Below, one piece after another: positions 5,336 to 30,025 of a stretch of 56,412 nucleotides of DNA (positions within the stretch are counted from its first letter, which is position 1; each line of letters begins with the position of its first letter). The stretch is taken from assembly GCF_030908215.1 (NCBI RefSeq), contig NZ_JAVFJK010000013.1, positions 87,003 through 143,414 of the forward strand, read 5' to 3'. Source of the stretch: Sinomonas sp. ASV486 (GTDB lineage: Bacteria; Actinomycetota; Actinomycetes; Actinomycetales; Micrococcaceae). Below the pieces are notes generated by a model that worked only from the letters and a program-made list of their open reading frames with translations, did no database searches and was not told where the DNA came from. The translations under genes and the position numbers were made by a program.

Positions 5336-5390
5336 TGGGAACGTTCCAACATCTGGTTTAGAGTATCCCTATGACCGGCGTTGCGGTCAA
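5336..5390 (-). promoter_or_regulatory. promoter and LacI operator (A-type, GGAACGTTCC)
   Basis: The palindrome GGAACGTTCC (5338-5347, inside TGGGAACGTTCCAA) lies 36 bases before the oxidoreductase start. On the minus strand a -35-like TTGACC (5385-5390) is followed after 17 bases by GATACT (5362-5367), or after 19 bases by TACTCT. The palindrome therefore falls around the transcription start, the usual place for a LacI-type repressor. The divergent gene at 5420 encodes the likely regulator. The same 10 bases recur at 26559-26568. Confidence 0.75.
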
Positions 5391-5419
5391 GATTTGTCCT
5401 GACATTTGTGGAGGCGAAC

Positions 5420-6469
5420 ATGGCGCAGGCCGGCCCCAAGCCCGCGACGATCCTCGACGTCGCCGCCCGAGCCGGCGTGTCCAAGTCGGCCGCCTCCCTC
5501 GCGCTGCGCGGCACGGGCTACGTGAGCGAGGCGAGGCGCCGTGCCATCCTCGAGGCCGCCGCCGAGCTCGGCTACCGCCCCAACGCCGCCGCGCGCGCCA
5601 TGGGCTCGGCCCGCAGCGGCACCGTCGGCGTCATCCTCGATGACCTGCGCAACCCATGGTTCGTCCCCGCGGTCGAGGGCCTCACCGAGGGCCTCCATGC
5701 GGCGGGCCTCCACGCGCTCCTCGGCGACTGGCGGCTCGAGGGGGCCGAGCTCGCGGAGCGCTTCCTCGAGCTGCGTGTCGAGGCCCTCGTCCTGGTCGGG
5801 ACGCTCGACGGCGCGGAGACGGCTTTCGCCGAGATCGCGCCTTTGCCCGGGGGGATCCCCGTGCCGGTGGTCCAAGTGGGCGCTCCCCACGCCCAGGTCC
5901 CCGGTGCCGCTGTGGTCACCAACGACGATGCCGAGGGCGCCCGCCGCGTGGTCCGGCATCTCGCGGCGCTCGGGCACCGCCGGATCGCGCACCTCTCCGC
6001 CCCCGGAACCGCGGTGGGCGACGCACGGCGCGCCGGATTCGAGGACGCGTGCCAGGTCCTCGGCATCGAGTCACAGACGGTTGAGGCCGGACGCACCGAG
6101 GAGGCCGGCTGGCGCGCGGCGCACGAGGCTCTGGATGCGAGCCCGCGGCCCACAGCCCTGTTCGCGGTGAATGACATGGCCGCGTTCGGCGCTCTCTCCG
6201 CGGCCGATGACCTCGGCCTCCGCGTCCCCGAGGACCTCTCGCTCGCCGGCTACGACGACACCCCGGCAGCTCGCCTCAAGGCAGTGGGCCTCACGAGCGT
6301 GGACAATGCGAGCCGGGAGGCCGGGCGTGTCGCTGCGGACCTCCTCGCCGCACGGCTTGCCCACCCCGGGTCTCCCAGGGGAACCTACGACGACCGCGAG
6401 CCACCCGCCGTCGTCCTCCTGCCGCCTGAGCTCAAGGTGCGCACGAGCACGGCGCCGCCTCCGTCATGA
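5420..6469 (+). CDS. LacI-family transcriptional regulator
   Basis: A 349-residue repressor. The N-terminal helix-turn-helix reads ILDVAARAGVSKSAASLALR, followed by the hinge GYRPNAAARAM and a periplasmic-binding-protein-like sugar domain ending with TSVDNASREAG and VRTSTAPPPS. I chose the ATG at 5420 because GGAGG stands just upstream (about 5410-5414); an upstream in-frame start at 5381 has no such support. It is divergent from the truncated oxidoreductase with the GGAACGTTCC palindrome between them, so autoregulation and control of that gene are likely. The recognition-helix residues after VS are Lys-Ser, as in the LacI at 17487. The effector is probably a sugar or polyol, but unknown. Confidence 0.88.
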   Translation: MAQAGPKPATILDVAARAGVSKSAASLALRGTGYVSEARRRAILEAAAELGYRPNAAARAMGSARSGTVGVILDDLRNPWFVPAVEGLTEGLHAAGLHALLGDWRLEGAELAERFLELRVEALVLVGTLDGAETAFAEIAPLPGGIPVPVVQVGAPHAQVPGAAVVTNDDAEGARRVVRHLAALGHRRIAHLSAPGTAVGDARRAGFEDACQVLGIESQTVEAGRTEEAGWRAAHEALDASPRPTALFAVNDMAAFGALSAADDLGLRVPEDLSLAGYDDTPAARLKAVGLTSVDNASREAGRVAADLLAARLAHPGSPRGTYDDREPPAVVLLPPELKVRTSTAPPPS

Positions 6470-6521
6470 CTGCAAGTGGTTCGCGCCCCGGCTCACCGGC
6501 GACTGGTCTGAGAAGGCACGA

Positions 6522-7502
6522 CTAGGGAACTTCAATGTCGGGGTGCTGCCGCCGAACCCACTCGGCCATCCGCCGCGCTCGTGCTGCGATGAACTCCAGC
6601 GTGGCTTCGCGGTACGTCACGTATTCGTCGCGTGTGACGGGTGTCCCGGGGCGCTCGAAGTTGTCGAACGGCAGGTAGAACTGAACCTCGTTGTAGTCGG
6701 GCGTCACGAGGTCTTGCAGGTGGAAGAAGTCAACGAACTCAGTGAACCCGTCGAAGAGTTCGAAGAAGTCCGCATAGGCGCCGAGGACACCGGCCAGAGG
6801 GCTCTCTTCCTCTCCCGTGTAGTGACGCCGGATGCACTCAAGGGTGAGGTCCATGCGGTCACCGATCAGCCTGCCCGAGGGACCGAACCCTCGTGCCGTA
6901 TTCATCGTGGGTCGGTACTCCTTCCTCACGGGCCAGATCATCGCGCTGCCGATCGTGTACGGCGGGTTGAGGTAACGGGACCGCTCGTCCTCGTTCAGCG
7001 ACGCGATCGCGCCTGCCAGAGACGTCGGACGTGACCAGCCGGTGTAGGAGCTGGTGATGGCGTCGCTGCCGTACCAATGCCTGGCCTCGGAAGCATCGGT
7101 GTAGACGAGGTACCCGTTCCGACGGGCCGATGGCGCGGTCGGGGCGAAATGGACGCCAGAGTTCAGCTTCTTGGTCCACAGCAGCTCATGGTCCGAGCGG
7201 AGCCGGGGGCTGTCCCGGTCCGCATCGGGTCTGGACTTCGCAGGCCTGTCCGTCTTGTAGTCGAAGGAGATATCGAAAGCTCGCCGGACCTCGCCTATGA
7301 TCGCGATCTGCTTGGACTCCACCACGGCGGAGTAGTCAGGCATGGTGCTGCCTAGACAGGCCTCGACCCGGTAACGCCCATCTCCCAGTGGATATGCCGT
7401 CACCGGCTGGCCGGCCGGGACGGAGACACCCCCGCCGTGCTCGCCGGAGATGATCGGCTCAAAGATGATCTCTTCCTTGGTCTCTGCCGTGAACGCTTCC
7501 AT
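6522..7502 (-). CDS. uncharacterised protein, DUF6994-like
   Basis: A 326-residue soluble protein without signal peptide or membrane segment. The motif FDYKTDRP followed by DSPRLRSDHELLWTKKLNSG resembles actinobacterial proteins I recall as DUF6994; this assignment is from memory of the motif, not a search. The first 90 residues (a beta-rich segment ending at EACLGSTMPDY) look like an addition. The C-terminal half is rich in aromatic and acidic residues (FFELFDGFTEFVDFF). The ATG at 7502 is preceded by GAGGGGGGAACCG, a strong ribosome-binding site. It has no operon partner: the neighbours are a LacI gene convergent on one side and a repair protein behind a hairpin on the other. Function unknown. 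Confidence 0.6.
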   Translation of the reverse strand: MEAFTAETKEEIIFEPIISGEHGGGVSVPAGQPVTAYPLGDGRYRVEACLGSTMPDYSAVVESKQIAIIGEVRRAFDISFDYKTDRPAKSRPDADRDSPRLRSDHELLWTKKLNSGVHFAPTAPSARRNGYLVYTDASEARHWYGSDAITSSYTGWSRPTSLAGAIASLNEDERSRYLNPPYTIGSAMIWPVRKEYRPTMNTARGFGPSGRLIGDRMDLTLECIRRHYTGEEESPLAGVLGAYADFFELFDGFTEFVDFFHLQDLVTPDYNEVQFYLPFDNFERPGTPVTRDEYVTYREATLEFIAARARRMAEWVRRQHPDIEVP

Positions 7503-7664
7503 CGGTTCCCCCCTCGTGTGGCTCCATTGTGCCCATCTCGGCCGACGTCCAGCCCGCGCCACTCGCAGACGTTGCCATGGTCTTGCGCACTGGCCCACGA
7601 AGCCCTGTGGTGCGCTCCGCGGCGCGAGGATGCCTCGGCCGGTGCCGCCGGCCGGCGGTGAGAC

Positions 7665-7694
7665 CGCACGACGGCGAGCGGTCGCCGTCGTGCG
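7665..7694. repeat. 13-bp palindromic element with GCACGACGGCG arms
   Basis: CGCACGACGGCGA (7665-7677) and its exact complement TCGCCGTCGTGCG (7682-7694) flank a GCGG loop. It lies 5 bases past the stop of the HhH-GPD gene on the minus strand, so it can act as its terminator. The same stem core and loop recur inside a coding sequence at 19874-19895, and the arm word is dispersed through the window. Confidence 0.7.
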
Positions 7695-7698
7695 CGGC

Positions 7699-8277
7699 TC
7701 ACTCCTTTGCTGAGGCCTTCGCCGCAGCCTTCTGTGAGCGCTTGTGCTCGCGCACCTTCGCGAGGGACTCCGGCGAGACGATGTCGGCGACACTGCGGTA
7801 CGAGCCGTCTTCACCGTAGGCGCCAGAGGCCTCGCGCCAGCCCGCCCCAGCGTAGCCGTACTGCTTGCCGAGCAGCGCGAGGAAGATCTTCGCCTTCTGC
7901 TCGCCGAAACCCGGGAGCTTCTTGAGTCGCTTGAAGACCTCGGCGCCGTCGGGCGCGCCCCGCGTCCAGATCGCCGCGGCGTCGCCGCCCCACTCGCCCT
8001 CGATCTCGGCACAGAGGGCCTGGACCCGCGCAGCCATCGACCCCGGGAAGCGGTGGACCGCCGGGGTCTCCTTGAACAGCTGCGCAAAGTCGTCGGGATT
8101 CGCGTGGGCCAGGGCGCCCGCATCGAGCGTGCCGGCCCGCTCGGAGATCTTGAGCGGGCCGGCGAACGCGGTCTCCATCGGGACCTGCTGGTCCAGCAGC
8201 ATCCCAATGAGGAGGGCCAGCGGGTCGTCGGTCAGAAGGCGGTCGGCGGCGTCGTCGCCGGTGATGTGCAAGGCCAT
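7699..8277 (-). CDS. HhH-GPD-type base excision repair protein
   Basis: A 192-residue soluble protein resembling DNA glycosylases of the helix-hairpin-helix GPD superfamily, which remove damaged bases. The segment LIGMLLDQQVPMETAFAGP corresponds to the N-terminal helical core, and KLPGFGEQKAKIFLALLGK near residue 120-138 is the hairpin. The C-terminus is Lys/Ala rich (EHKRSQKAAAKASAKE), suggesting nucleic-acid contact. No four-cysteine iron-sulfur cluster is present, unlike Nth or MutY. The ATG at 8277 gives the family-like N-terminus MALHITGD; longer upstream frames have no homology I recognise. It stands alone between sugar-metabolism genes. The lesion specificity is unknown. Confidence 0.75.
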   Translation of the reverse strand: MALHITGDDAADRLLTDDPLALLIGMLLDQQVPMETAFAGPLKISERAGTLDAGALAHANPDDFAQLFKETPAVHRFPGSMAARVQALCAEIEGEWGGDAAAIWTRGAPDGAEVFKRLKKLPGFGEQKAKIFLALLGKQYGYAGAGWREASGAYGEDGSYRSVADIVSPESLAKVREHKRSQKAAAKASAKE

Positions 8278-8317
8278 GGGGCCAGTCTTCCACTGGCTCC
8301 GGCGTAGGTCGACGAGC

Positions 8318-9085
8318 TCAGCGACCGAACTCGGCCCCGAAGGCCGTGAGCGCGGCGTCCGGATCGCCGGACGCGTAGGCCTCCATGCCCACGGTGCCCT
8401 CGTATCCGGCCTCGGCGAGCGCCCGGTGGACCGCCGCGTAGTTGATCTCGCCTGTGCCGGGCTCGCAGCGGCCGGGCACATCCGCGACCTGGACCTCGCC
8501 GATCCACGGCAGGGCCTCGCGCACCAGCTCGATGAGGTTTCCCTCCCCGATCTGCGCGTGGTACAGGTCGAGCATGAGCCTGACGTTCGGGTGGTCCACA
8601 GCTCTCACGAGCGCGAGCGTGTCCTTGGCCCGCGCGAGCGGGATGCCCGGGTGGTCGAGGATCGTGTTGAGGTTCTCGAGGCAGAACGTGAGCCTATGCC
8701 TGGCACCGAGCTCGCCGAGCTGCTCGAGCGCCTTCGCCGCGGTGAGCCACATGGTCCCGTCCGAGCGCCAGTGCGGGCGCGCGGCCTGGCCGTCCACAAG
8801 CTCCGCTGAGTGCACCACGAGGCGTTCGACGCCGAGCTCCAGGGCCGTGGGGATCAGGCCTTCCGCTGTGCTCACCACGAGGTCCGCGGTGTCCGGCTCG
8901 ACGAGCGAGCCCGTCACATAGCCCGTCATCGACGAGAACCGCGCGCCAGTGGCCTTGAGCTCCGCGATGTCCTTGGTGCGGGAGTCCCACATCTCGACGT
9001 CGAACCCGGCCTCGCTGATCCTCCGGACCCGCTCGATAAACGGCAGGTCCGTGTAGACCATCTCCGCGCAGACGGCGAGCCTCAT
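8318..9085 (-). CDS. hydroxypyruvate isomerase-like TIM-barrel protein
   Basis: A 255-residue xylose-isomerase-like (AP endonuclease 2 fold) TIM barrel, closest in length and motifs to hydroxypyruvate isomerase (Hyi): the N-terminus MRLAVCAEMVYTDLPF, the metal-ligand strands CLENLN and LMLDLYHAQIGEGN, and VQVADVPGR. Hyi interconverts hydroxypyruvate and tartronate semialdehyde. Its ATG overlaps the stop of the upstream oxidoreductase by four bases (ATGA, 9082-9085), so the two are translationally coupled and probably act in sequence. An oxidised sugar acid or ketose could therefore be the substrate instead. Control is by the CTAGATCGATCTAG operators upstream of the pair. The specific substrate is inference. 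Confidence 0.75.
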   Translation of the reverse strand: MRLAVCAEMVYTDLPFIERVRRISEAGFDVEMWDSRTKDIAELKATGARFSSMTGYVTGSLVEPDTADLVVSTAEGLIPTALELGVERLVVHSAELVDGQAARPHWRSDGTMWLTAAKALEQLGELGARHRLTFCLENLNTILDHPGIPLARAKDTLALVRAVDHPNVRLMLDLYHAQIGEGNLIELVREALPWIGEVQVADVPGRCEPGTGEINYAAVHRALAEAGYEGTVGMEAYASGDPDAALTAFGAEFGR

Positions 9086-10200
9086 CGCGCCACCGACCCG
9101 GCGCCGTCGTGCGTCCCCTCGGGAGCCGAGCCAGCGACGCCTGCCGCCGCCCCGCTCTGGACTGACTCGATGCAGGCGCGCGCGAGGGCGAGGGCGCGTC
9201 GGGCGTCGGCGAGGCCGGGTGTCACGGGAACGCCGTGCTCGGGCGCCGCGGTGCCGTCTCGGCGGCCGGCGACGTGGGCCGCGAAGTCCGCGAGCTCGTC
9301 GCGGTAGGCATCGGCGAAGAGCTCGATGTTGAGGCGGGGCGTCTCGGCGCCCACGCCATCAGCGGTGTAGCGGCACGCGGCCGTCTCGGTCGCGCGGCCG
9401 GCCTGGACCATGCCGGCGGAGCCGAAGGTCTCGCCGCGCACGTCGTAGCCGTAGAGCGCGGAGAAGTTGGCCTCGGCCACGGCAATGGCGCCGTTGCTGT
9501 AGCGGATCGTCGCCACGGCCGTGTCGATGAAGCCCGCGTCCTTGAACGAGGGCTCGACCAGCGCGTCCGCGAAGACGTGGACGCTGATGGGCTCGGCACC
9601 GGGGTTCATCCAGTTGAGGGCGTCGAAGTCGTGGATGAGCGTCTCGAGGAACATGGTCCACTGGGGGACGCGGGCGGCATGGGGGATGGAGCCGTTGCCG
9701 GGGTCCCGCGTGAGGGAGCGGAGGAGCTGCGGGGTCCCCACAACGCCCGCGGCGAGGTCGCGGCGTGCGGCGAGGAAGTCCGCGGCGTACCGCCGGTTGA
9801 AGCCGATCTGCCAGTGCACACCCGCCTCGGCGACGGCGGCCTCGATCTCGGCGAGCTCCTCGAGCGTGGTGGAGCCGGGCTTCTCGCAGAACACGTGCTT
9901 GCCCGCACGCGCGGCGGCGATCGAGAGCGGGGCGTGGAACCGGATCGGGCCGGCGATGACGACGGCGTCGATCGCGGGATCCGCGAAGAGGTCGGCGGCG
10001 TCCGCGGTGACCTTCTCGACGCCGAGCTCGGCCGCGAGCTTCGTGGCGGGCTCGATGGCTGGGTCAGCGATCGCGGCGAGGGTGGCGCCTGGGATCCTCT
10101 CGGCCAGGCTGCGGGCGTGGAAGGCGCCCATCCAGCCGGCGCCGATGAGGCCCACTCGGACCGGCTCGGGTCGGGCCGAGTCGACGGGGAGGTAGCTCAT
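9082..10200 (-). CDS. Gfo/Idh/MocA family oxidoreductase
   Basis: A 372-residue NAD(P)-dependent sugar or cyclitol dehydrogenase. GLIGAGWMGAFHA is the dinucleotide-binding turn, HVFCEKPGSTT the EKP motif, and LIHDFDALNWM the active-site helix. The last 25 residues (from GAAAGVAGSAPEGTHDG) look like a disordered extension beyond the normal family end, and its DNA includes a copy of the GCACGACGGCG word. It starts at an ATG at 10200 behind GAGAGGA. First gene of a two-gene operon with the Hyi-like gene, and divergent from a LacI regulator with twin operators between. An oxidation plus isomerisation or lyase step on a sugar is the natural reading. Confidence 0.85.
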   Translation of the reverse strand: MSYLPVDSARPEPVRVGLIGAGWMGAFHARSLAERIPGATLAAIADPAIEPATKLAAELGVEKVTADAADLFADPAIDAVVIAGPIRFHAPLSIAAARAGKHVFCEKPGSTTLEELAEIEAAVAEAGVHWQIGFNRRYAADFLAARRDLAAGVVGTPQLLRSLTRDPGNGSIPHAARVPQWTMFLETLIHDFDALNWMNPGAEPISVHVFADALVEPSFKDAGFIDTAVATIRYSNGAIAVAEANFSALYGYDVRGETFGSAGMVQAGRATETAACRYTADGVGAETPRLNIELFADAYRDELADFAAHVAGRRDGTAAPEHGVPVTPGLADARRALALARACIESVQSGAAAGVAGSAPEGTHDGAGSVAR

Positions 10201-10233
10201 TGGGGGGGTCCTCTCGGGAAGTCAGCATGGGAT

Positions 10234-10303
10234 CTAGATCGATCTAGTGAATCAGGTGCTGTCAGTGTGGCACGCCTCGCGCGCCATGTCTAGATCGATC
10301 TAG
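10234..10303. promoter_or_regulatory. twin LacI operators (T-type, CTAGATCGATCTAG)
   Basis: Two identical 14-base perfect palindromes, at 10234-10247 and 10290-10303, are 56 bases apart centre to centre between divergent genes (an oxidoreductase and a LacI regulator). The core AGATCGATCT fits the GA-N-CG-N'-TC skeleton of the other operators here, with T at N. A -10-like TACAGT (10304-10309) directly follows the second copy on the plus strand. The spacing would allow one tetramer to loop, or each promoter to have its own site. Confidence 0.82.
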
Positions 10304-10348
10304 TACAGTGTGCGCAAGAGTTCCACGACAACGCCGAGGAGGAGGACC

Positions 10349-11341: not shown

Positions 11342-11362
11342 TCACAGCATGTGCGGGGCGGT

Positions 11363-12295: not shown

Positions 12296-12352
12296 GGACC
12301 GAGTTTAGCAAAAGTAGATCCTTCTCGATTTTTCTTCGATTGTGCTGAACCC
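12296..12352. promoter_or_regulatory. leaderless LysR promoter and possible LysR-binding arms
   Basis: On the minus strand TAAACT (12302-12307) is followed by six bases and the LysR ATG, which fits a leaderless transcript. The imperfect inverted pair GTTTAGCA (12303-12310) and TGCTGAAC (about 12344-12351) brackets an AT-richer stretch between the divergent LysR and PrpF-like genes and could be the regulator's binding region. The second part is a weak call. Confidence 0.4.
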
Positions 12353-12418
12353 TCGTGCCTTGGATCGTGGAAGGACAAGGCGCCGTGAGGTGCACCACCC
12401 AAGGTGAAGGAGAAGACA

Positions 12419-13558: not shown

Positions 13559-13615
13559 ACCCCCCCACCTGCCCCCTGTCACTATGGACAGGGCGCTCAT
13601 CAAGGAAGTTGTTCA

Positions 13616-14926: not shown

Positions 14927-14970
14927 TCGGTTCTGAGCGGCCCGCCGTCAGGGCCAGCGCGTGACGCAAA

Positions 14971-15044: not shown

Positions 15045-16064
15045 TCAGGCGCGAGCGGGCGCGTCTTCGCCGATCATGCGGGCGGCCTCGAGCAGCACGC
15101 CGGCGGCGACCTCCAGGCCTTCGATGCGGCCGAGGGAGACATCCTCGTGCTCGATGTTGACCATCATCTCCGGATCCACGTCGCGGAGGGCTCGGAGGAA
15201 CTCGGCCCAGTACGCGGCGTCGTGCCCGCGACCGAGGGCAACGAAGTCCCACGCCGAGTCCTTCGGCCACTCGTTCGCCCACTCGTCGCCGCCGAGGTTG
15301 GTGCGGGGCTCGTCCGGGGAGAGGCGGCGGAAGCGGTTGTCGAGGACGCCGTAGAGCTTGGCGTTCTCGGTGTTGACGCGCACGTCCTTCGCCGCCGCGT
15401 GGAACACGAGAGGCCCGAGCTCGCGGACCACGGCCACCGGGTCCATCTGCTGCCAGAAGAGGTGCGAGGCGTCGAGCTCGACTCCGACGTGGGTCGCGCC
15501 GGTGAGCTCGACGAGCTTGTGGACGTCGGCGGTGTTGAACACGATGTTCTGCGGGTGCAGCTCGAGGGCCACCTTGACGCCGTGGTCCGCGGCGAGGCGG
15601 TCGGTCTCGCGCCAGAAGTCCGCCGCGATCCCCCACTGGTAGTCCAGGACGTCGAGCGCGGCCGAGTTCCATGCGTTGACGATCCAGTTCGTCACTGTCG
15701 CGCCGGGCTCGCCGCCGGGGAGGCCGGACATGGTCACGACTCGGTTCTGGCCCAGGCGCTCCGCGAGGCGGATCGAGCGGCGGATGTCCTCGGCGTGCTT
15801 CTGGCCGATCTCGGCCTTCGGGTGGAGCGGGTTGCCGTTACAGTTCAGGCCCGCGATGGCTACGCCGGTGCCCTCGAAGATGCCCAGGTAGTCATCGCGG
15901 GCCGCGTCGCTGACGAGGATGTCGTCGAACGTGGGGACATGGACGGCGGGCAGGAAGCCGCCGGTGTTGATCTCGATGCCGGTGAGGCCGAGATCGGCGA
16001 TGACCTTGAGCGCCTCGGGAAGGGAGCGGTCGTGCAGGATGGCGTTGTAGATGCCGAGCTTCAT
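15045..16064 (-). CDS. sugar phosphate isomerase/epimerase-like TIM barrel
   Basis: A 339-residue xylose-isomerase-like TIM-barrel protein. Motifs: LNCNGNPLHP, TMSGLPG, VALELHPQNIVFN, VELDASHLFWQ and FHAAAKDVRVN. Glu, Asp, His and Glu residues in these strands are placed to bind a divalent metal. The ATG at 16064 is preceded by AGAGGAA; the open frame extends upstream but without homology. It lies 25 bases downstream of an oxidoreductase gene on the same strand, so the pair forms an operon under the TTTGGAGCGCTCCAAA operator. It is clearly paralogous to the protein at 23437-24402, sharing NGNxLHP, SGLPG, DxSHLxW and the AKD motif. Specific reaction unknown: isomerase, epimerase or lyase on an oxidised sugar. 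Confidence 0.8.
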   Translation of the reverse strand: MKLGIYNAILHDRSLPEALKVIADLGLTGIEINTGGFLPAVHVPTFDDILVSDAARDDYLGIFEGTGVAIAGLNCNGNPLHPKAEIGQKHAEDIRRSIRLAERLGQNRVVTMSGLPGGEPGATVTNWIVNAWNSAALDVLDYQWGIAADFWRETDRLAADHGVKVALELHPQNIVFNTADVHKLVELTGATHVGVELDASHLFWQQMDPVAVVRELGPLVFHAAAKDVRVNTENAKLYGVLDNRFRRLSPDEPRTNLGGDEWANEWPKDSAWDFVALGRGHDAAYWAEFLRALRDVDPEMMVNIEHEDVSLGRIEGLEVAAGVLLEAARMIGEDAPARA

Positions 16065-16089: not shown

Positions 16090-17313
16090 TCAGCGCACGA
16101 CGGCGGCAGTGGGCTTCTGCGCCGATGGCACCTCGACGCGGCGGCCGGAATCGGCGGCGGACTGGGCGACTGCGCCGAGGATCTCCATGTTCCGCACGCC
16201 CTCGTCGAACGTCGCGTTGCGTGGGAGGGAGTCGGCCTCGGACAGCCCTGCGACCTCCTCGAGGAAGGCGCGGGCCTGGTAGCCGAAGGCGTCATTCTGG
16301 CCGAAGCCGACGCTCGGCGCGTCCATCGCGAGGCCACCGGCGATGTACGGGTGGTCGGGGCCGAGGATCACCTGGCGGTAGCCGTTCTGGGCGTAGGGGC
16401 CCTCGTTGAGGAACAGACCGATCTCGGCGGGGCGGCGCTGGTCGAAGAGCGCGGCGCCGTTCTCGCAGAAAACCTCGAACATGAGCGAGTTCGCGTGGCC
16501 GGAGGCCACGCGGGAGACCGAGAGCGAGCCGATGCACGAGGCGAACTCGGCGGAGAAGGAGGCAACGTCGTCGTTCTCCACCGGCTCGAGCTGGTCCGAC
16601 ACGGCCGCGTGGTCGTGGCCCATGACGGCGCCGAGCGGGAGCGGGCGCTCCGTGATCGCGGTGGAGAGCTGGCCGCCGGAGACGGACTGGATGTCTCCGC
16701 ACAGGAACTCGCCCACATAGGCGAGGTGGCTGCCCACGTCGGCGAGCGCGCCCGAGCCCGGGCCGCCCTTGTAGCGCCAGCTCATGGGGGCCTGCGGGCT
16801 GCAGCCGTAGTCGGTCCAGTAGCGGCCCGAGAAGTGGAGCGGGCGGCCGAGGGTGCCGTCCTGGATGAGCTTGCGGATCGCGGCGATGCCGGGCGTGCGG
16901 CGGTAGGTGAAGCCGATGCGGCCCAGGACGCCGCGCTCCTCCGCGGCCCTCGCGGCGTCGGCCATCGCGCGGGCATCGGCGAGCGTGTCGGAGAGGGGCT
17001 TCTCGCACAGGACATGCTTGCCGGCGGCGAGGAGGCCCTCGACCACCTCGCGGTGGAGCGAGTTGGCGATGACGACGCTCACGACGTCGATGTCGTCCGC
17101 CTCGGCGATGGCCTGCCACGAGGAGTCGTGGCGCGCGTAGCCGAAGCGGGTTGCGGCGGCCTGCCCGAATTCCGCGTTGACGTCGCCGATCGAGACGAGG
17201 CGGATCTCGGGCAGCGTGGGCTTGTACAGGGTGCTCGCGGTGCGGTAGGCGGCGGCATGGGCCTTGCCGGCCATGCCTGCGCCGATGACGGCGACGCCGA
17301 GGGGCTTGCTCAT
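16090..17313 (-). CDS. Gfo/Idh/MocA family oxidoreductase
   Basis: A 407-residue NAD(P)-dependent dehydrogenase, among the longer members of the family. AVIGAGMAGKAHAAAYR binds the nucleotide, HVLCEKPLSDT carries the EKP lysine, and GGPGSGALADVGSHLAYVGE holds the Asp/His active-site helix. Tyr/Trp-rich FSGRYWTDYGCSPQ is typical of members acting on glycosides or cyclitols. The ATG at 17313 follows AAGGAGAG. First gene of a two-gene operon with the TIM-barrel protein. The promoter has TTGACA and is covered downstream by a 16-base palindrome; the divergent LacI at 17487 is the probable regulator. Confidence 0.86.
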   Translation of the reverse strand: MSKPLGVAVIGAGMAGKAHAAAYRTASTLYKPTLPEIRLVSIGDVNAEFGQAAATRFGYARHDSSWQAIAEADDIDVVSVVIANSLHREVVEGLLAAGKHVLCEKPLSDTLADARAMADAARAAEERGVLGRIGFTYRRTPGIAAIRKLIQDGTLGRPLHFSGRYWTDYGCSPQAPMSWRYKGGPGSGALADVGSHLAYVGEFLCGDIQSVSGGQLSTAITERPLPLGAVMGHDHAAVSDQLEPVENDDVASFSAEFASCIGSLSVSRVASGHANSLMFEVFCENGAALFDQRRPAEIGLFLNEGPYAQNGYRQVILGPDHPYIAGGLAMDAPSVGFGQNDAFGYQARAFLEEVAGLSEADSLPRNATFDEGVRNMEILGAVAQSAADSGRRVEVPSAQKPTAAVVR

Positions 17314-17399: not shown

Positions 17400-17447
17400 T
17401 TTGGAGCGCTCCAAAGAAGGTTAAGACCGAGGAGTTTGTCCTGTCAA
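17400..17447 (-). promoter_or_regulatory. promoter and LacI operator (G-type, TTTGGAGCGCTCCAAA)
   Basis: On the minus strand a consensus -35 TTGACA (17442-17447) is followed by TTAACC (17419-17424, 17-base spacer) or TAACCT (18-base spacer). Immediately downstream lies the perfect 16-base palindrome TTTGGAGCGCTCCAAA (17400-17415). A repressor bound there would block initiation for the oxidoreductase and TIM-barrel operon. The divergent LacI gene begins at 17487. Confidence 0.82.
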
Positions 17448-21232: not shown

Positions 21233-21242
21233 GATGTCCTCC

Positions 21243-22340: not shown

Positions 22341-22444
22341 GTGCAGGTCTCTCCTTGGGTGTTAGCGGCATCACAGCTGCCGCGCTACATCCATAAGACC
22401 AAGCCGGGATTGATCACGTCCAAGACCAATTCTTCATCTGCTGG

Positions 22445-22459
22445 ATAGGATGCACCTAT
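22445..22459. promoter_or_regulatory. LysR-type box ATAGG-N5-CCTAT (T-N11-A)
   Basis: The inverted repeat ATAGG (22445-22449) and CCTAT (22455-22459) has the T-N11-A geometry of LysR operators (T22446, A22458). It lies about 105 bases upstream of the tartrate-dehydrogenase-like start and 12 bases downstream of the LysR stop on the same strand, the right place for activation of the acid-use operon. Confidence 0.6.
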
Positions 22460-22470
22460 CGATGAGTACC

Positions 22471-23373: not shown

Positions 23374-23436
23374 TGCCGCCCCCTGTCCTGGGTGGAGGGG
23401 CGATCGGCCGCACAGTGCCCCCGCCCCTCATCCACC

Positions 23437-24402: not shown

Positions 24403-24460
24403 CGAAATCCCTCTCTGTACTGCGTCTGTTCGGTGGCGCGACTGACCTTTGGTACGTCTC

Positions 24461-24489
24461 ATCTGCGGTGCGCATGATCTGCGGTGCGC
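24461..24489. repeat. 13-base direct repeat upstream of TIM-barrel gene
   Basis: ATCTGCGGTGCGC occurs at 24461-24473 and again at 24477-24489, separated by ATG. It lies in the 106-base gap between the oxidoreductase stop and the TIM-barrel start. It may be replication slippage or a tandem protein site. Confidence 0.55.
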
Positions 24490-24508
24490 GGGTCGGCGCG
24501 CCTTGGCC

Positions 24509-25534
24509 TTACTCCCCCGGGTACACGATCGCGGCCTGGCGCCGCAGCTCGTCCGCGACGCGCAAGGCCAGGATGCTGAGGTGGAGTGGCCGTTCGGCCA
24601 CCTCGGTCTGCCCCGCGGCGATGGCCCGGGCCACCGCGGCGGCCTGGAAGTGCAGCCCGGCCACGTGATCGCCAGGCGTGCCCTCCCAGCGGTGGGCCTC
24701 GCCGTCGGCGGTGCGCACGGTCAGGCCACCCGGCGAGTTGAACGGGCCGTCGAATGTCAGGGCCGCCTCGGTGCCGACCACGGTGAGCTGCGCGGGCGTG
24801 AATCCGAGCATCGTGGTGGTGAGCGTAGCCTGGGCGCCGCCGGGGAACCCGAGCAGGGCCGAAAGCTGTCCGTTCACCCCGTTGGCCAGTGGCGACCCGA
24901 GCCCCAGGACGCGGTCTGGCTCGCCGAGGATGTCCGTGGCGAGGGCGAGGAGGTAGATGCCGAGATCGAGGAGCGGGCCTCCGGCGAGGGCCGGGTCGTG
25001 CGCACGGTGGCTCGGCGGGAGGTACTCGCCGTAGTCGCCCAGGACGGTGCTCAGCTCGCCGAGGTGTCCGCCGCGGATGAGCTGCCGCGCGACGTCGTAC
25101 GAGGGCAGGAACGCGGTCCAGAGCGCCTCGGCGGCGAAGAGGCCGCGGGACCGGGCGGCGTCGGCGATCTCCTGCGCCTCGGCCGCGCTGATGCCGATGG
25201 GCTTCTCGACGAGAACGTGCCGGCCCGCCCCGAGCGCGATCAGGGCAACGTCACGGTGCGCGGTGTGCGGCGTGGCAACGTAGACGATGTCGACGTCGGG
25301 GTCCGCGGCGAGCGATTCGTACGAGCCGTGGGGCCTCAGCCCACGGGGCGCCGCGAACGCCCGCGCCCGCTCGAGCGAGCGGGACCCGACGGCCGTGACC
25401 CGCTGGGAACCGTGCAGGGCGAGCGATTCAGCGAACCGCTCGGCGATCCAGCCCGGCCCGGCGATCCCCCACCGCAGGCTGGGCGCCTCGGCGGCGTCGG
25501 GCACGCGCGATACGGGGAACTCGAACGAGCTCAC
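24509..25534 (-). CDS. Gfo/Idh/MocA oxidoreductase, dihydrodiol dehydrogenase-like
   Basis: A 341-residue NAD(P)-dependent oxidoreductase. RWGIAGPGWIAERFAESL is the nucleotide-binding segment, HVLVEKPIGIS the EKP motif, and AAEALWTAFLPSY is characteristic of members resembling dimeric dihydrodiol/D-xylose dehydrogenases and glucose-fructose-type enzymes. GTG at 25534 overlaps the stop of the upstream gene by four bases (GTGA). Second gene of an operon whose promoter carries the A-type GGAACGTTCC operator. Two different oxidoreductases in one unit suggest sequential oxidations, or an oxidation plus reverse reduction of a cyclitol or sugar. Confidence 0.83.
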   Translation of the reverse strand: MSSFEFPVSRVPDAAEAPSLRWGIAGPGWIAERFAESLALHGSQRVTAVGSRSLERARAFAAPRGLRPHGSYESLAADPDVDIVYVATPHTAHRDVALIALGAGRHVLVEKPIGISAAEAQEIADAARSRGLFAAEALWTAFLPSYDVARQLIRGGHLGELSTVLGDYGEYLPPSHRAHDPALAGGPLLDLGIYLLALATDILGEPDRVLGLGSPLANGVNGQLSALLGFPGGAQATLTTTMLGFTPAQLTVVGTEAALTFDGPFNSPGGLTVRTADGEAHRWEGTPGDHVAGLHFQAAAVARAIAAGQTEVAERPLHLSILALRVADELRRQAAIVYPGE

Positions 25535-26535
25535 GCGTGGACTACCTTCACGAAAGCGCCGGCGGCGTCGATCGAGGCTGCGAGGGCGGCGCCGATCTCC
25601 GAGGCGCGGAGCCCGTCGCGTGCAGTCGCGAGGGGCGACGGCGCGCCCGTCCGCAGCGAGTCGATCCATGCCTGGAGCTCGATCCGGTACGCGTCGGCGA
25701 AGCGGGGGCGCCAGTCGGCGGGGTACTCGGTCGCCCGGCGCCGATCGAGGTTGAACTCGAGCAGGGGGGACTCGGTGAAGCTGGCGGTCCCGCGCTCCCC
25801 CACGACTTCAAGCCGCGTCGAGTAGCCGTACTCGGCGTTGAGGAACAGCTCGAGGGTCACGAGCGTGCCGTCCTCCATCCGCAGCAGCATGAGCGCGGGG
25901 TCCTGGAGGCCCGCAGGCGCGAGCGAGGACGCCTTCCGGCCCGAGACCCACGCGACCTCGGCCACGGAGGTGCCGAGCAGCCACGGCATCGAATCGAGCT
26001 CGTGGATCGCCGAGTTGGTGATGGCGGAGACGTTCGTCGCGTCCGGGGCGGAGCGGACGTTGCGGCTCACGCAGTGCGCCACGAGCACCTCGCCGAGCTC
26101 GCCCGCGGCGAGGCGCCGCCTGAGCTCGGTGTGCGCGGGATCGAAGCGCCGCATGAATCCGAGGGAGACGAGGCTGCGGCCCAACTCCACGGCCACCGCC
26201 TCCTCTGCCTCGACCACGGCACGGCCCTCCTCGACGGTGGGGGCGAGGGGCTTCTCGCACAGGACGGGCTTGCGTGCATCGAGGCAGGCGGTGAGGAGCT
26301 CGGCGTGGGTGGAGTCGTGGGACGCGATGACGACGGCGTCAACCTCGTCGTCCGTGATGAGCGCCCGCGGGTCGGTGGTGCTTCGCGCGCCGGCCGGCCC
26401 GGCGGCGGCAGCCGCGCGGTCGGCGTCGAGGTCCGCAACGAGCGAGACGGAGGCGCCGCTCACCGCGCCGGCGAGATTGCGCACATGGTCGGCACCCATG
26501 ATTCCGGCGCCGATGACGCCCACGCGGATGGTCAT
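25531..26535 (-). CDS. inositol 2-dehydrogenase-like Gfo/Idh/MocA oxidoreductase
   Basis: A 334-residue NAD-dependent dehydrogenase closest in style to IolG-type inositol dehydrogenases. GVIGAGIMGADHV is the Rossmann turn, PVLCEKPLAPT carries the EKP lysine, and SAIHELDSMPWLLG holds the catalytic Asp/His region. Length matches the family, and its intact C-terminus (TARDGLRASEIGAALAAS) contrasts with the broken end of the related protein at 4196-5302. First gene of the operon, behind a promoter with TTGACA and the palindrome TGGAACGTTCCA. No LacI gene is adjacent, so the LacI at 5420 (same operator) is the obvious candidate regulator. Inositol is the likely but unproven substrate class. Confidence 0.83.
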   Translation of the reverse strand: MTIRVGVIGAGIMGADHVRNLAGAVSGASVSLVADLDADRAAAAAGPAGARSTTDPRALITDDEVDAVVIASHDSTHAELLTACLDARKPVLCEKPLAPTVEEGRAVVEAEEAVAVELGRSLVSLGFMRRFDPAHTELRRRLAAGELGEVLVAHCVSRNVRSAPDATNVSAITNSAIHELDSMPWLLGTSVAEVAWVSGRKASSLAPAGLQDPALMLLRMEDGTLVTLELFLNAEYGYSTRLEVVGERGTASFTESPLLEFNLDRRRATEYPADWRPRFADAYRIELQAWIDSLRTGAPSPLATARDGLRASEIGAALAASIDAAGAFVKVVHA

Positions 26536-26557
26536 AGGGATCTCTTCTCTTCAGTAG

Positions 26558-26616
26558 TGGAACGTTCCAAGGTTGGGTTGATCACACTCTAGTCGCAGCC
26601 GAGTTTGTCCTGTCAA
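26558..26616 (-). promoter_or_regulatory. promoter and orphan A-type operator TGGAACGTTCCA
   Basis: A 12-base perfect palindrome (26558-26569) lies 23 bases before the inositol-dehydrogenase-like start. Upstream on the minus strand are TTGACA (26611-26616) and a -10-like TAGAGT (26586-26591, 19-base spacer). The core GGAACGTTCC is identical to the site at 5338-5347, 21 kb away beside a LacI gene. Confidence 0.78.
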
Positions 26617-26640
26617 GTGCGCTTCGGGGCTCGACCCTCG

Positions 26641-26695
26641 GCTGACGGTCTTCTGACTGTTGTCTGACGGTTGTCTGACGGTTGTCTGACCGTGG
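26641..26695. repeat. five 11-bp tandem units, TCTGACGGTTG type
   Basis: Five consecutive 11-base units: one GCTGACGGTCT, one TCTGACTGTTG, two exact TCTGACGGTTG and one TCTGACCGTGG. The period is close to one helical turn, so a protein bound to each unit would sit on one DNA face. It lies 25-80 bases upstream of the -35 of the oxidoreductase operon. Confidence 0.75.
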
Positions 26696-26703
26696 CGCGC
26701 GGT

Positions 26704-26756
26704 GACGCACGATGACGGCGCGGTCGGCTGGGTGCCGAACCGCGCCGTCGTGCGTC
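26704..26756 (-). terminator. hairpin downstream of sugar ABC operon
   Basis: GACGCACGA (26704-26712) plus CGGCGCGGT (26716-26724) pair with ACCGCGCCG (26739-26747) and TCGTGCGTC (26748-26756). This makes an 18-bp stem with a three-base bulge and a 14-base loop, 40 bases past the stop of the ATPase gene. One arm contains the dispersed word CGCCGTCGTGC. Confidence 0.65.
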
Positions 26757-26796
26757 CCCCGGGCAGTCGACGCGCGAACCCGGGATGTGCCCATCG

Positions 26797-27726
26797 TCAG
26801 GCTGTGGGCGACTCCGCCTTGGGTGCTTCGGCTTGGACGGCGGCGGCTTCGGCTTTGGCTTCTTGGAGGGCTTGGGTGTGGCCGCCGAGCTGTTCGAGTT
26901 CGTGGGCGAGTTCGGCGAGTTCGGCGCCGCCGGCCATCTGGGCGGTGAGTTCTTCCAGGGTGATGTCCTTCTTGTCGTAGTAGCCGATGGAGCGGCCGCG
27001 CTTCAGGAGCAGGAAGCGGTCCCCGACGGGGAAGGCGTGGTGGGGGTTGTGGGTGATGAAGATGACGCCGAGGCCGCGGTCGCGGGCCTGGAGGATGTAG
27101 CGCAGGACCACGCCGGACTGCTTCACGCCCAGGGCGGCGGTGGGCTCGTCCAGGATCAGGACCTTGGCCCCGAAGTACACGGCCCGGGCGATGGCCACGC
27201 ACTGCCGCTCGCCGCCGGAGAGCTGGCCGATGGGCTGCTCGACGTCGCGCAGGTCGATGCCCATGGCCGCCAGCTCGGTCCTGGTGGTCTCCTTCATCCG
27301 GTTCACGTCCATGCGCTTGAACGGGCCGAACCCGGTGGTCAGCTCGGAGCCGAGGAAGAAGTTGCGCCAGATCGGCATGAGGGAGACCACCGCGAGGTCC
27401 TGGTAGACCGCGGCGATGCCCGCGTCCAGGGCCTCCCTCGGGGAGGAGAGCCTGCGTTCCTCGCCCATGATGGTGAAGGTGCCGGCGTCGTGCTGGTGCA
27501 GGCCGGCGATGATCTTGATCAGGGTCGACTTCCCGGCCCCGTTGTCGCCCAGGACGCAGGTGACGCGGCCGTTGTCCACGGCCATGGTCACCTCCCGCAG
27601 GGCGATGACGTTGCCGTAGTGCTTGCCCACGCCGTCCAGGCGCAGCAGGTGCACGGGCCGGTCGGTGAGGGGGTCGGTCTCCCCCGCCTTGGCCAGGATC
27701 TCCTGGTTGCTGATGTGCTCTGCCAT
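26797..27726 (-). CDS. sugar ABC transporter ATP-binding protein
   Basis: A single-domain ATPase (309 residues) of the ribose/fructose/inositol-type importers. Walker [10 protein letters not shown] near residue 64-72, Q-loop VYQDLAV, signature [10 protein letters not shown] near 155 and Walker [12 protein letters not shown] near 180, with the His switch ITHNPHHAF. RbsA-type proteins often have two domains; this one has one, like FrcA. The tail after the ATPase fold is Ala/Glu/Lys rich. ATG at 27726 is nine bases after AGGAG, better placed than ATG at 27735, which abuts it. Last gene of the binding protein, permease, ATPase operon; energises import at the cytoplasmic membrane. Confidence 0.9.
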
Positions 27727-27753
27727 GGTGGCCATCTCCTGTGCTTCGTTCTC

Positions 27754-28821
27754 TCAGGCGCGCTCTGCGCGCTTCTTGACGATGAGGTTCACGATCGTGG
27801 CCAGCAGGAGCATCAGGCCCAGGAAGAACTTGAACCAGTCCGGGTTCCACTGCGCGTACACGATGCCCTTGTTGGCCATGCCGAAGATGAACGCGCCGAT
27901 CGCCCCGCCCACGGCCGAGCCGTACCCGCCGGTGAGCAGGCACCCGCCGATGACCGCGGCGATGATGTAGAGGAACTCGTTGCCCACGCCCTCCCCGGAC
28001 TGGACCGCGTCGAACGCGAACAGGTTGTGCATGCCCAGCAGCCACCCGCACAGCCCCACCCCCATGAACAGGCCGATCTTGGTCGCGGTGACCGGGACCC
28101 CGACCGCCCGGGCGGCGTTCGCGTCCCCGCCCGCGGCGAAGATCCAGTTCCCGACCTTCGTGCGCAGCAGCACCCAGGACGCGACCACCACCAGCACGAT
28201 CCAGTACAGGATCGTGATCTTGAACTCGACCCCGCCGATGTTCACCGAGGACGCGAAGACCGCCTTGGCCGCGCCGAACCCGTCCATCTGGGCGATCGAG
28301 GGCGAGGACACCGCCCCGCCGATCAGGCGGGTCAGGGCCAGGTTCAGGCCCGTGAGCATCAGGAACGTGGCCAGGGTCACGATGAAGGAGGGCAGCTTCG
28401 TCTTGACCAGGATCCACCCGTTCACGAACCCGATCCCCAGGGAGACCACCAGGGCCAGCAGGACCCCGACCCACACGTTCATCCCGAAGTTCCAGGAGAA
28501 CAGGGACGCGGTCAGGGCCGAGGAGATCACCGCGACACCCGAGGACAGGTCGAACTCGCCCCCGATCATCAGCAGCGAGACCCCCACCGCCATGATCCCG
28601 ATCGTGGAGGACCCGTACAGGACCGTCGCGAGCGCGTTGGGCTGCAGGAACGTCCCCGAGACCGCCGCGAAGAAGATGAACAGCACGACCGCGGCCGCCA
28701 GCGCCCCGACCTCCGGACGGCCCAGGAGCTTCTGGAACGGGCCACGACGCCCGACCCGCTCGTCTTTGGCAGCCGGCGCGGGCGCCGGCCCCGGCGTCGA
28801 GGGAAGTGTTGCAGTTGCCAT
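27754..28821 (-). CDS. sugar ABC transporter permease (RbsC/FrcC-type)
   Basis: A 355-residue integral membrane protein of the branched ribose/xylose/inositol permease family. Hydrophobic segments include LAAAVVLFIFFAAVSGTF, GVLLALVVSLGIGFVNGWI and FFLGLMLLLATIVNLIVKK. The family loops MIGGEFDLSSG and FAAGGDANAARAVGVPV (the ATPase-contacting EAA-like loop) are clear. The first 30 residues are Pro/Ala-rich and cytoplasmic. ATG at 28821 follows AAGGAG. It lies 27 bases upstream of the ATPase gene and 63 bases downstream of the binding protein gene. The sugar is unknown; the nearby inositol-type dehydrogenases make a cyclitol or pentose plausible. Confidence 0.9.
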   Translation of the reverse strand: MATATLPSTPGPAPAPAAKDERVGRRGPFQKLLGRPEVGALAAAVVLFIFFAAVSGTFLQPNALATVLYGSSTIGIMAVGVSLLMIGGEFDLSSGVAVISSALTASLFSWNFGMNVWVGVLLALVVSLGIGFVNGWILVKTKLPSFIVTLATFLMLTGLNLALTRLIGGAVSSPSIAQMDGFGAAKAVFASSVNIGGVEFKITILYWIVLVVVASWVLLRTKVGNWIFAAGGDANAARAVGVPVTATKIGLFMGVGLCGWLLGMHNLFAFDAVQSGEGVGNEFLYIIAAVIGGCLLTGGYGSAVGGAIGAFIFGMANKGIVYAQWNPDWFKFFLGLMLLLATIVNLIVKKRAERA

Positions 28822-28884
28822 GGAAAGAACTCCTTCTCAGTCGGGCCGCGCGGCGTTCCCGCCGCACGGCCCCGATCCTTGGAA

Positions 28885-29874
28885 CTAGCGGACGCCCTGC
28901 TGGACGAACTTGAGGACGTCGGAGATGTTGGACTTGTCCACGATCGCCGGCCCGGTCAGCACCGGCTGGCCACCACCGACCTTGAACCCGCCGCGCTTGT
29001 TCTGCCAGAGCGCGTCAACCGACAGGTAGCCCTGCAGCCACGGCTGCTGGTCCACCGTGAAGAGCACCTTGCCGTCGCTGATCGCCTGGGCCAGGGCAGG
29101 GTTGAGGTCGAAGCTCGCCACCTTGACCGAGCTATTCGCATCCGCCACCGCCTTGAGGAGGGTGACCGTGTACGGGGCGCCGAGGCCGACGATCACATCG
29201 GCGTCCTTCGTGGCCTGCAGCTTCGCCGTCGCCGTGGACTGCACCGAGGTCATATCGGCTCCGTTGACGTAGAGGATCTCCGTGCCCGGGACCTTCTCCT
29301 TCACGCCCGCGCACCGGGCCTCGAGCTGCACCTGCCCCTGCGACATGATCACGCAGATGGGGTGCTTGTAGCCGTCCGAGGCGAGCTTGGTGCCCACCGC
29401 CTCACCGGCGAGCTTCTCGTTCGAGCCGAAGTGCGTGAACGCGCCCATCTGCGCGGAGACGTCGCCGCCGGCGTTGAAGCTCACGAGCGGGATGCCCGCG
29501 TCGGCAACCTTCTTCAGCACATCCTTCATGGCGCCCGGGTTGGCGATGGTGACCGCGATGCCATCCACCTTCTGGTCGATCGCCTGCTGCACCAGCTGGG
29601 ACTGTCGCCCGGCGTCCGAGTCATTCGTGTAGAGAATCTCGACGTTGTCCTTCGCCGCCGCCTCCTCGGCACCCTTGCGCACGATGTCCCAGAACGTGTC
29701 GCCCGCCTCGGCGTGCGTGATGAGGGCAACCTTCATCCTGGGAGTCGAGACGGCCTGGCCGCCTCCTGAACCTGCGGTCGCGTCGGCCTGCTTGCCGCCG
29801 CCCGAGCAGGCCGTCACGGCGAGGACTGGGATCAGGGCAAGGGCGGCCAGGCCGCGGTGCCACGTCTTCTTCAC
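28885..29874 (-). CDS. sugar ABC transporter substrate-binding lipoprotein
   Basis: A 329-residue secreted lipoprotein. The signal peptide LAALALIPVLAVTACSGGG ends in a lipobox with Cys as lipid anchor. The mature part is a ribose-binding-protein-like fold (KVALITHAEAGDTFWDIVRKG, VDGIAVTIANP, VSFNAGGD) that hands a sugar to the permease. I placed the start at GTG 29874, five bases after AAAGGAGA; the GTG at 29904 would put that ribosome-binding site inside the gene. First gene of the transporter operon. Its promoter is bracketed by two TGGACCGGTCCA palindromes, shared with the divergent TIM-barrel gene. Confidence 0.9.
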   Translation of the reverse strand: MKKTWHRGLAALALIPVLAVTACSGGGKQADATAGSGGGQAVSTPRMKVALITHAEAGDTFWDIVRKGAEEAAAKDNVEILYTNDSDAGRQSQLVQQAIDQKVDGIAVTIANPGAMKDVLKKVADAGIPLVSFNAGGDVSAQMGAFTHFGSNEKLAGEAVGTKLASDGYKHPICVIMSQGQVQLEARCAGVKEKVPGTEILYVNGADMTSVQSTATAKLQATKDADVIVGLGAPYTVTLLKAVADANSSVKVASFDLNPALAQAISDGKVLFTVDQQPWLQGYLSVDALWQNKRGGFKVGGGQPVLTGPAIVDKSNISDVLKFVQQGVR

Positions 29875-29971
29875 GAGCTCTCCTTTGATGTTCGTGCGCT
29901 TCACATCCCGGGAAGGATCTCGGGGGCTCCGGCCTCACCGGATCGGCGGGAATGTGATGCGGGTCTCTTTA

Positions 29972-30025
29972 TGGACCGGTCCAACCATAGGCCGCGAAAG
30001 TTTCGGATGTCAATGGACCGGTCCA
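29972..30025. promoter_or_regulatory. promoter bracketed by two C-type operators TGGACCGGTCCA
   Basis: Two identical perfect 12-base palindromes, at 29972-29983 and 30014-30025, are 42 bases apart centre to centre. Between them on the minus strand stand TTGACA (30008-30013), an 18-base spacer and TATGGT (29984-29989), each touching an operator. Binding would lock the binding-protein promoter and could also affect the divergent gene at 30100. No LacI gene is adjacent. Confidence 0.85.

Follow-up and report, generated by a model that had tools for sequence, protein, structure and literature searches.

Seven perfect palindromes centred on CG lie in a 56,412-bp stretch of the Sinomonas sp. ASV486 genome, called the window here (bases 87003-143414 of contig C5, NZ_JAVFJK010000013.1, in a 4.28-Mb assembly of 19 contigs). 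They are interpreted as operators of four paralogous LacI/GalR-family repressors, LacI-A, LacI-T, LacI-G and LacI-C, in which the base at one variable operator position goes jointly with residues 5 and 55 of the repressor, and of which the LacI-C unit lies beside the others through an assembly join; the probability of this reading is put at about 0.73. Residue 5, which we take to be the position of LacI Tyr7 at the start of helix 1, presumably touches the operator. Operator positions are counted outward from the centre, with C at ±1 and the variable base at ±2, followed by A at ±3, G at ±4, G or A at ±5 and mostly T at ±6 (T in the sites, or G on one side only at 5338). Protein residues follow E. 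coli GalR, the numbering of Camas, Alm and Poyatos (2010; PMC2978694).

Matches to the LacI-type helix-turn-helix domain (PF00356) number 24 in the whole assembly, and three of them are inside the window (LacI-A, LacI-T and LacI-G). These three proteins exceed the cut-offs for both PF00356 and PF13377, the architecture of the LacI/GalR family. For all four repressors, even palindromes with a central CpG stand upstream of their own gene or operon. The operators and repressors are as follows, the start of LacI-A at 5420 having been chosen by script.

5338..5347, operator A1 (GGAACGTTCC), context TGGGAACGTTCCAA, between a divergent Gfo/Idh gene and LacI-A
10235..10246, operator T1 (TAGATCGATCTA), inner 10-mer AGATCGATCT starting at 10236
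10291..10302, operator T2 (TAGATCGATCTA), inner 10-mer AGATCGATCT starting at 10292, 56 bp from T1
17400..17415, operator G (TTTGGAGCGCTCCAAA), inner 10-mer GGAGCGCTCC starting at 17403
26559..26568, operator A2 (GGAACGTTCC), context TGGAACGTTCCA
29972..29983, operator C1 (TGGACCGGTCCA), inner 10-mer GGACCGGTCC starting at 29973
30014..30025, operator C2 (TGGACCGGTCCA), inner 10-mer GGACCGGTCC starting at 30015, 42 bp from C1
5420..6469, plus strand, LacI-A (locus L014), helix KSAASL, residue 5 Leu, residue 55 Gly, PF00356 and PF13377
10349..11341, plus strand, LacI-T (locus L021), helix RALVSI, residue 5 Ala, residue 55 Arg, PF00356 and PF13377
17487..18512, plus strand, LacI-G (locus L006), helix KSLVSL, residue 5 Tyr, residue 55 Ala, PF00356 and PF13377
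C19:35080-36099, outside the window, LacI-C, helix KSLVSL, residue 5 Arg, residue 55 Ala, PF00356 above cut-off

The first-pass annotation had described perfect palindromes using A, G, C and T at one position, and all seven sites were found in the sequence. Its positions 5338, 26559, 29973 and 30015 stood; GGAGCGCTCC starts at 17403, not 17402, and 10235 and 10291 are the starts of the 12-mer TAGATCGATCTA, with the 10-mer AGATCGATCT at 10236 and 10292. Five of the seven palindromes have the common skeleton GGA-N-CG-N'-TCC and are located between predicted genes, and the four repressors have two site forms, TGGANCGNTCCA and TAGANCGNTCTA. As far as sequence can tell, the sites are supported as operators of the LacI type that share a skeleton and have CpG at the centre.

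To relate the base at ±2 to the protein, LacI genes were gathered from relatives by similarity to those of the window (348 without duplicates; 379 distinct proteins with the held-out set), and CG-centred palindromes upstream of them were taken as operators without knowledge of the protein. Left out of the counts were duplicate genes, genes whose domain is preceded by fewer than 200 bases, palindromes lying beyond the range -250 to -20 (among them 6-of-6 palindromes such as those of L099, L090 and L336), and genes without a first-tier site that had more than one second-tier site. The training subgroup was defined by Ser19 with a hydrophobic residue or Tyr at 20, and an operator was called in 90 of its 186 genes. 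Votes were counted once per 60%-identity cluster.

In the class with Lys-Ser at residues 15-16, all 47 called sites of the rule-deriving set (24 first-tier, 23 second-tier) follow residue 5. Arg5 goes with C at 10 sites, Tyr5 with G at 15, including one second-tier site (L219) without the GGA skeleton, and Ala, His, Ile, Leu, Ser or Val5 with A at 22. Counting half-sites in this class with palindromy not required gave 29 G and 1 A for Tyr5, 29 A and 3 G for His, Ile, Leu or Val5, 8 A for Ala or Ser5, and 1 A and 1 G for Asn5. Of the variable positions, residue 5 is the strongest correlate of ±2 across the Lys-Ser half-sites (21 clusters; z 4.94, reached in 0 of 2000 permutations), and residue 55 is outside the top 14. 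The Lys-Ser repressors form a natural controlled comparison, in which residues 15-16 are constant and the base shifts with residue 5.

Over all LacI with full palindromes (99 of 379 genes, 57 clusters), ±2 tracks residue 55 (z 9.0) and then residue 5 (z 6.2). As positive controls in the same 99 genes, ±5 ranks residues 15 and 16 first, and ±6 ranks residues 17 and 20. A two-residue table was drawn up from the 78 genes without Arg-20. With a small residue 55, it pairs Arg5 with C (4/4), Tyr5 with G (9/9), Glu5 with G (17/17) and Val, Ile, Leu or His5 with A (3/3), other residues at 5 having G in five genes and C in one. Val55 goes with A in 7/7 and Arg or Lys55 with A or T in 30/31, one gene being without a residue at 55. 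All four repressors fit this table, and LacI-G, -C, -A and -T would use G, C, A and T because of their residue 5/55 pairs Tyr/Ala, Arg/Ala, Leu/Gly and Ala/Arg. The earlier idea that the ±2 base goes with the protein like a recognition code holds in part; the recognition helix as sole reader is not supported, because three of the four repressors share Lys-Ser there and the base tracks residues 5 and 55.

A held-out set of 59 loci from two phylum-wide searches was scored with the rule fixed beforehand. Its 41 proteins comprised 12 outside the subgroup, 14 without a called operator and 15 with one. Among genes less than 60% identical to training genes, 7 could be scored and the rule predicted 5 of them correctly, or 4 of 5 where the site was a full palindrome; the 8 genes at 60% identity or more, excluded from that count, were all predicted correctly. 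Residue 5 alone as a strict rule was rejected after one held-out failure (L450) and the half-site counts. Glu46 as the cause of C at ±2 was also rejected, since 8 of the 10 Arg5 operators in the training set, all with C, belong to proteins with Arg46.

Several observations weigh against the reading given at the outset. The genes were collected via similarity to the window's own LacI, 96 of the 186 training-subgroup genes gave no operator call, and the 47/47 count demanded palindromy at ±2, whereas the half-site count, which did not, gave for Arg5 C in 45 of 72, with A in 22, T in 3 and G in 2. The clean held-out failure, L450 (Arg5/Val55), has A, and the other miss, L423, depends on a doubtful site. 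The Val55 clause and the two-residue table were drawn up post hoc, once L450 had failed, and are not independent; the table also includes both sets, and 17 of 19 Arg5/Val55 genes (L296-L320 and others) are without a full TGGANCGNTCCA upstream. Among the controls, ±4 ranks residue 17 first and residue 16 sixth. Among the Arg-20 proteins (21 genes in 17 clusters), ±5 fails to put residues 15 and 16 first, residue 5 is not in the top six for ±2, Arg5 occurs with C twice and with G and T once each, and a Val5/Ala55 protein has G; extending the residue-5 rule to Arg-20 LacI accordingly gave no clear effect. A tree built from the ligand domains of 89 of the 90 called genes requires no fewer than 13 changes at ±2. 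For Arg5-C the tree yields two independent pairs (three on all branches), with a mean of 1.9 concordant and none opposed, and for Tyr/Glu5-G five pairs, with a mean of 2.6 concordant and 2.3 without difference, one being opposed in a few pairings; neither result is significant, and ancestry remains a concern because the independent pairs are few. In the genus, where the TGGACCGGTCCA pattern was searched in 9 of 15 genomes, single sites occur in G003 and G013, which have no LacI-C, and one extra site in G012.

Judged from these sequences, the base at ±2 is a preference tied to residues 5 and 55 and not a strict code. Some cross-talk between C- and A-type operators is therefore plausible, given the A half-sites of the Arg-5 repressors (22/72).

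As a separate observation, Arg5/Ser55 repressors (upstream of L292, L294, L295, L297, L303-L305 and others) have two sites each. The site at about -16 is usually asymmetric (TGGAAC followed by GGTCCA) and the farther site has C on the left, an asymmetry that seems conserved.

In the proposed mechanism, the palindromes would be autoregulatory and operon operators of the four repressors, controlling sugar or inositol-type catabolic genes. By analogy with the family, each dimer presumably binds like LacI, its hinge helix entering the minor groove at the central CpG and its recognition helix reading the outer half-site. Lys-Ser at 15-16 without Arg20 would go with the TGGA...TCCA frame, and Arg-Ala with Ile20 with the TAGA...TCTA frame. 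At ±2, A or T would accompany a residue 55 that is bulky or basic (Val, Arg, Lys); with a small residue 55, Tyr5 or Glu5 would go with G, Arg5 with C, and Leu, Ile, Val or His5 with A. The association of ±2 with these residues is observed in the counts, and from it we infer contact and binding. A more general form of the proposal, which we hold at even odds, is that outside the class with TVSR at residues 17-20 a two-residue switch, with residue 55 as gate and residue 5 as reader, sets ±2 independently of residues 15-16, so that one change could re-aim a repressor, and that paralogues use all four settings.

Camas, Alm and Poyatos (2010; PMC2978694) reported that ±2 correlates with residues 55, 15 and 5 and that (±5, ±4) correlate with residues 15 and 16, residue 55 being stated as demonstrated for PurR. 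They derived rules for (±5, ±4) in TVSR proteins and left the ±2 map open, as maybe beyond mutational work without a genomic blueprint. The family, the kind of operator and the positions are alike in the two studies, and the ranking over all LacI agrees on residues 55 and 5. Unlike the TVSR class as described there, the repressors here have AASL, LVSI, LVSL and LVSL at residues 17-20 and T rather than G at ±6 (a one-sided G at 5338), which places them outside it, and within the Lys-Ser proteins residue 5 leads while residue 15 is constant. No statement of a residue-5 rule for ±2 was found in the literature surveyed, a weak negative, as most subscription papers lay outside its coverage. The repressors and operators are of a known kind, and the new part is a refinement of the known ±2 correlation.

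It has been suggested, in the first-pass annotation, that the four bases are an evolved code, selected to insulate paralogous repressors from one another. The base at ±2 does differ between four paralogues of one cell and is nearly constant inside each orthologue group, and in the genome palindromic TGGANCGNTCCA occurs only at these loci. However, the same bases are found in LacI of distant genera (neighbouring clusters were not looked for there), so that history may suffice, and the tolerance of Arg-5 repressors for A half-sites speaks against a strict code. The exceptions to constancy are the LacI-T relatives in G006 and G007, which mix A and T within one site, and the four units are not neighbours in a complete genome. 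Selection for insulation is thus possible but doubtful.

A second alternative takes these as canonical operators in which ±2 is read by hinge residue 55 alone, with residue 5 hitchhiking through common descent. Over all LacI, residue 55 correlates most strongly with ±2, as it does in the Arg-20 class (z 4.7); it is ranked first by Camas et al. (2010; PMC2978694), and the residue-5 tree tests have few independent pairs. Yet in the Lys-Ser class with Ala55 fixed, Tyr5 goes with G, Arg5 with C and His, Ile or Leu5 with A, and in that class residue 55 falls below the leading correlates altogether. LacI-G and LacI-C themselves both have Ala55 and differ in G versus C, and L218 (Ile5, A) sits inside a supported clade with Tyr5/G proteins. 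A role for residue 55 without residue 5 is therefore considered unlikely.

The outer half-site is presumably read by the recognition helix. The first-pass annotation had placed the Arg-Ala repressor beside the most deviant operator, and LacI-T (helix RALVSI, TAGA...TCTA frame) is indeed found there, which agrees with what Camas et al. reported for residue 16. Of 35 Ala16 relatives lacking Arg-20, 28 have A at ±5. Among full palindromes of Ala16 proteins, ±5 to ±3 read AGA in 20/20 with Ile20 and in 6/11 with Leu20 (4 GGA, 1 AAA), and Ser16 with Leu or Met20 gives GGA in 27/27. Residue 20 may share the effect on ±5, because the sole Ser16/Ile20 protein has AGA. The form TGGANCGNTCCA stands upstream of 54/111 Lys-Ser LacI genes, 5/39 Arg-Ala, 1/6 Arg-Ser and 0/127 Arg-20 genes. 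LacI with RTLVSF or RTTVSF helices (L372, L392, L395, L252) were seen with a distinct palindrome, CTAACGCGCGTTAG.

The C unit differs from the other three in its gene context. In the window, no LacI gene lies beside the GGACCGGTCC pair, nor beside the A2 site at 26559. The features around the pair are the following.

26797..27726, minus strand, ABC transporter ATPase (PF00005), its 3' end holding the probable junction
26820..26844, probable assembly junction, within the ATPase gene
27754..28821 (open reading frame), minus strand, ABC transporter permease (PF02653 on 27754-28686)
28885..29874, minus strand, sugar ABC transporter substrate-binding protein (PF13407), first operon gene behind C1/C2
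30100..30957, plus strand, xylose-isomerase-like TIM barrel (PF01261), divergent, on the other side of C1/C2

Window bases 26844-56412 equal C4:130093-159661, which is a contig end, and the first 29,569 bases of C19, with 100% identity over 29,569 bases. The six occurrences of TGGACCGGTCCA in the assembly form three pairs with 42-bp spacing. Three regulated loci were considered and rejected; the pairs represent a single locus present in three contigs, because the 29.6-kb stretch is identical in all of them. Behind the pair on C19 come the transporter genes, then further same-strand genes and finally LacI-C. Two or three TGGACCGGTCCA, two of them spaced 42 bp, lie 8.6 kb upstream of LacI-C in the own genome, G038 (the complete genome of the same species), G006 and G012. 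Grouped TGGACCGGTCCA sites occur only in 4 of the 9 searched genus genomes, exactly those with a LacI-C orthologue, and stand ahead of transporter genes. In G038, the stretch is continuous with LacI-C at about 0.03-0.06 Mb, the cluster of A, T and G units is at about 1.08-1.09 Mb (about 1 Mb apart), and no TGGACCGGTCCA was found outside the LacI-C locus. In that genome, the A-T-G cluster is followed by a second transporter copy, about 94-95% identical (94.3-95.5%) to that of the window (the two copies, L124 1082-4018 and L128, being about 1 Mb apart), and then, by eye, by a regulator of GntR-like look and more catabolic genes.

Most likely the assembly was wrongly joined at 26820-26844 of the window, inside the ATPase gene; the C operator itself is not called into question by this. 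The A, T and G units are true neighbours, and the C unit probably adjoins them only via this join. The four neighbouring LacI units proposed at first are thus not borne out, since the window has three LacI genes and in the complete genome G038 the fourth operon is some 1 Mb distant. That the 29.6-kb stretch with the GGACCGGTCC pair truly adjoins the other units in this strain, by duplication or recombination via transporter genes, is what the contig itself shows, and the second transporter copy of G038 could recombine. It is nevertheless very unlikely, as the identity among window, C4 and C19 is complete, each of the three copies extends to a contig end, and in G038 the stretch joins LacI-C while other genes come after the second transporter. 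Contig ends can generate false gene neighbourhoods, and here the gene context right of 26.8 kb is probably misjoined.

The status of the palindromes as operators was weighed by counts and conservation. The window shows no enrichment of the bare 10-mer GGANCGNTCC, with 6 occurrences against a shuffle mean of 3.73 (at least 6 in 17 of 100 shuffles), and its 178 genome-wide occurrences compare with about 177 predicted from base composition (author's estimate), so that enrichment of the bare 10-mer as proof of function was rejected. Five of the six GGANCGNTCC sites in the window are palindromic at N and intergenic; the sixth (49155) is non-palindromic at N and inside a predicted gene. The 12-mer TGGANCGNTCCA has 10 matches in the assembly, which reduce to 6 distinct places when the triplicated stretch is counted once. 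Four of these are palindromic at N, all in the window, and the other two are non-palindromic and within predicted genes; TAGATCGATCTA was counted in the window only. A genome-wide count had been suggested as a check, and it returned chance level for the bare 10-mer but palindromic TGGANCGNTCCA only at the window loci, between genes. At 59 of 234 LacI genes an upstream palindrome centred on CG had six of six flanking pairs matched, where shuffling predicts 5.4.

In the genus, own genome included, GGAGCGCTCC is upstream of 11/11 LacI-G orthologues found, GGAACGTTCC is upstream of 10/10 LacI-A orthologues found, and at least two copies of TGGACCGGTCCA stand ahead of 4/4 LacI-C operons. The TAGATCGATCTA pair is perfect in 5 of the 7 genus genomes with a LacI-T relative that were examined (own, G038, G002, G003, G004), and mixed A/T half-sites occur at both places in G006 and at one place in G007. 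G002, G009 and G038 keep the A2 site ahead of their orthologue of the Gfo/Idh gene; in G003, the site is flanked by the ATPase gene and LacI-G, and no Gfo/Idh orthologue was found next to it. In G038, G006 and G012 two C sites are likewise 42 bp apart. The chance-level 10-mer counts would suit chance features of G+C-rich DNA or restriction-type words in place of operators, an explanation left with a negligible share by the intergenic placement, the 12-mer counts, the excess of full palindromes and, strongly, the conservation alongside LacI genes.

The likely targets of the repressors are oxidoreductase genes, some with a sugar-isomerase-like neighbour, as listed below.

4196..5302, minus strand, Gfo/Idh/MocA oxidoreductase (PF01408, PF22725), likely LacI-A target
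8318..9085, minus strand, xylose-isomerase-like TIM barrel (PF01261), likely in an operon with 9082..10200
9082..10200, minus strand, Gfo/Idh/MocA oxidoreductase (PF01408), divergent from LacI-T, likely target
15045..16064, minus strand, xylose-isomerase-like TIM barrel (PF01261), likely in an operon with 16090..17313
16090..17313, minus strand, Gfo/Idh/MocA oxidoreductase (PF01408), divergent from LacI-G, likely target
25531..26535, minus strand, Gfo/Idh/MocA oxidoreductase (PF01408), first gene behind operator A2

LacI-A, -T and -G are each divergent from a Gfo/Idh/MocA gene with the operators in between, and a sugar-isomerase-like gene comes next in two of the three. Operator A2 probably marks a second target of LacI-A, which would thus have two. 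For the protein at 4196..5302, the nearest NCBIfam model is TIGR04380, inositol 2-dehydrogenase, with a score under the cut-off. All NCBIfam equivalog matches of the ten scanned proteins fall short of their cut-offs, and for this reason the sugar is left unassigned and inositol-like substrates for these units are a guess.

The CelR/CebR cellobiose repressors of Actinobacteria (PMC3377646) are also of the LacI family, with GGA-N-CG-N'-TCC sites that have G and A at ±2 across species, as here. Their sites differ in having G at ±6 (consensus TGGGAGCGCTCCCA), where the present sites have T or a one-sided G, and their target genes differ; none of the seven window sites matches TGGGAGCGCTCCCA. In Ravcheev et al. 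(2014; PMC4052901), a central CG pair is given for 1173 of 1303 regulators, most sites lie 30-140 bp upstream, and tandem sites are common. The 42-bp spacing of the C pair, about four helical turns, is not among the peaks named there (13, 22 and 32 bp). If it holds in binding, the link of ±2 with residues 5 and 55 would provide a simple means of making repressors orthogonal and would improve the prediction of operators in Actinobacteria.

Two further LacI arrangements were noted. At L205 (G009:C1:1231800-1238000), two divergent LacI genes have two common TGACAGCGCTGTCA palindromes 40 bp apart. At L020 / L039 (G000:C12:362140), a LacI with helix PALVSL has two TCTAGAGCGC 33 bp apart and is, by eye, divergent from transporter-like genes.

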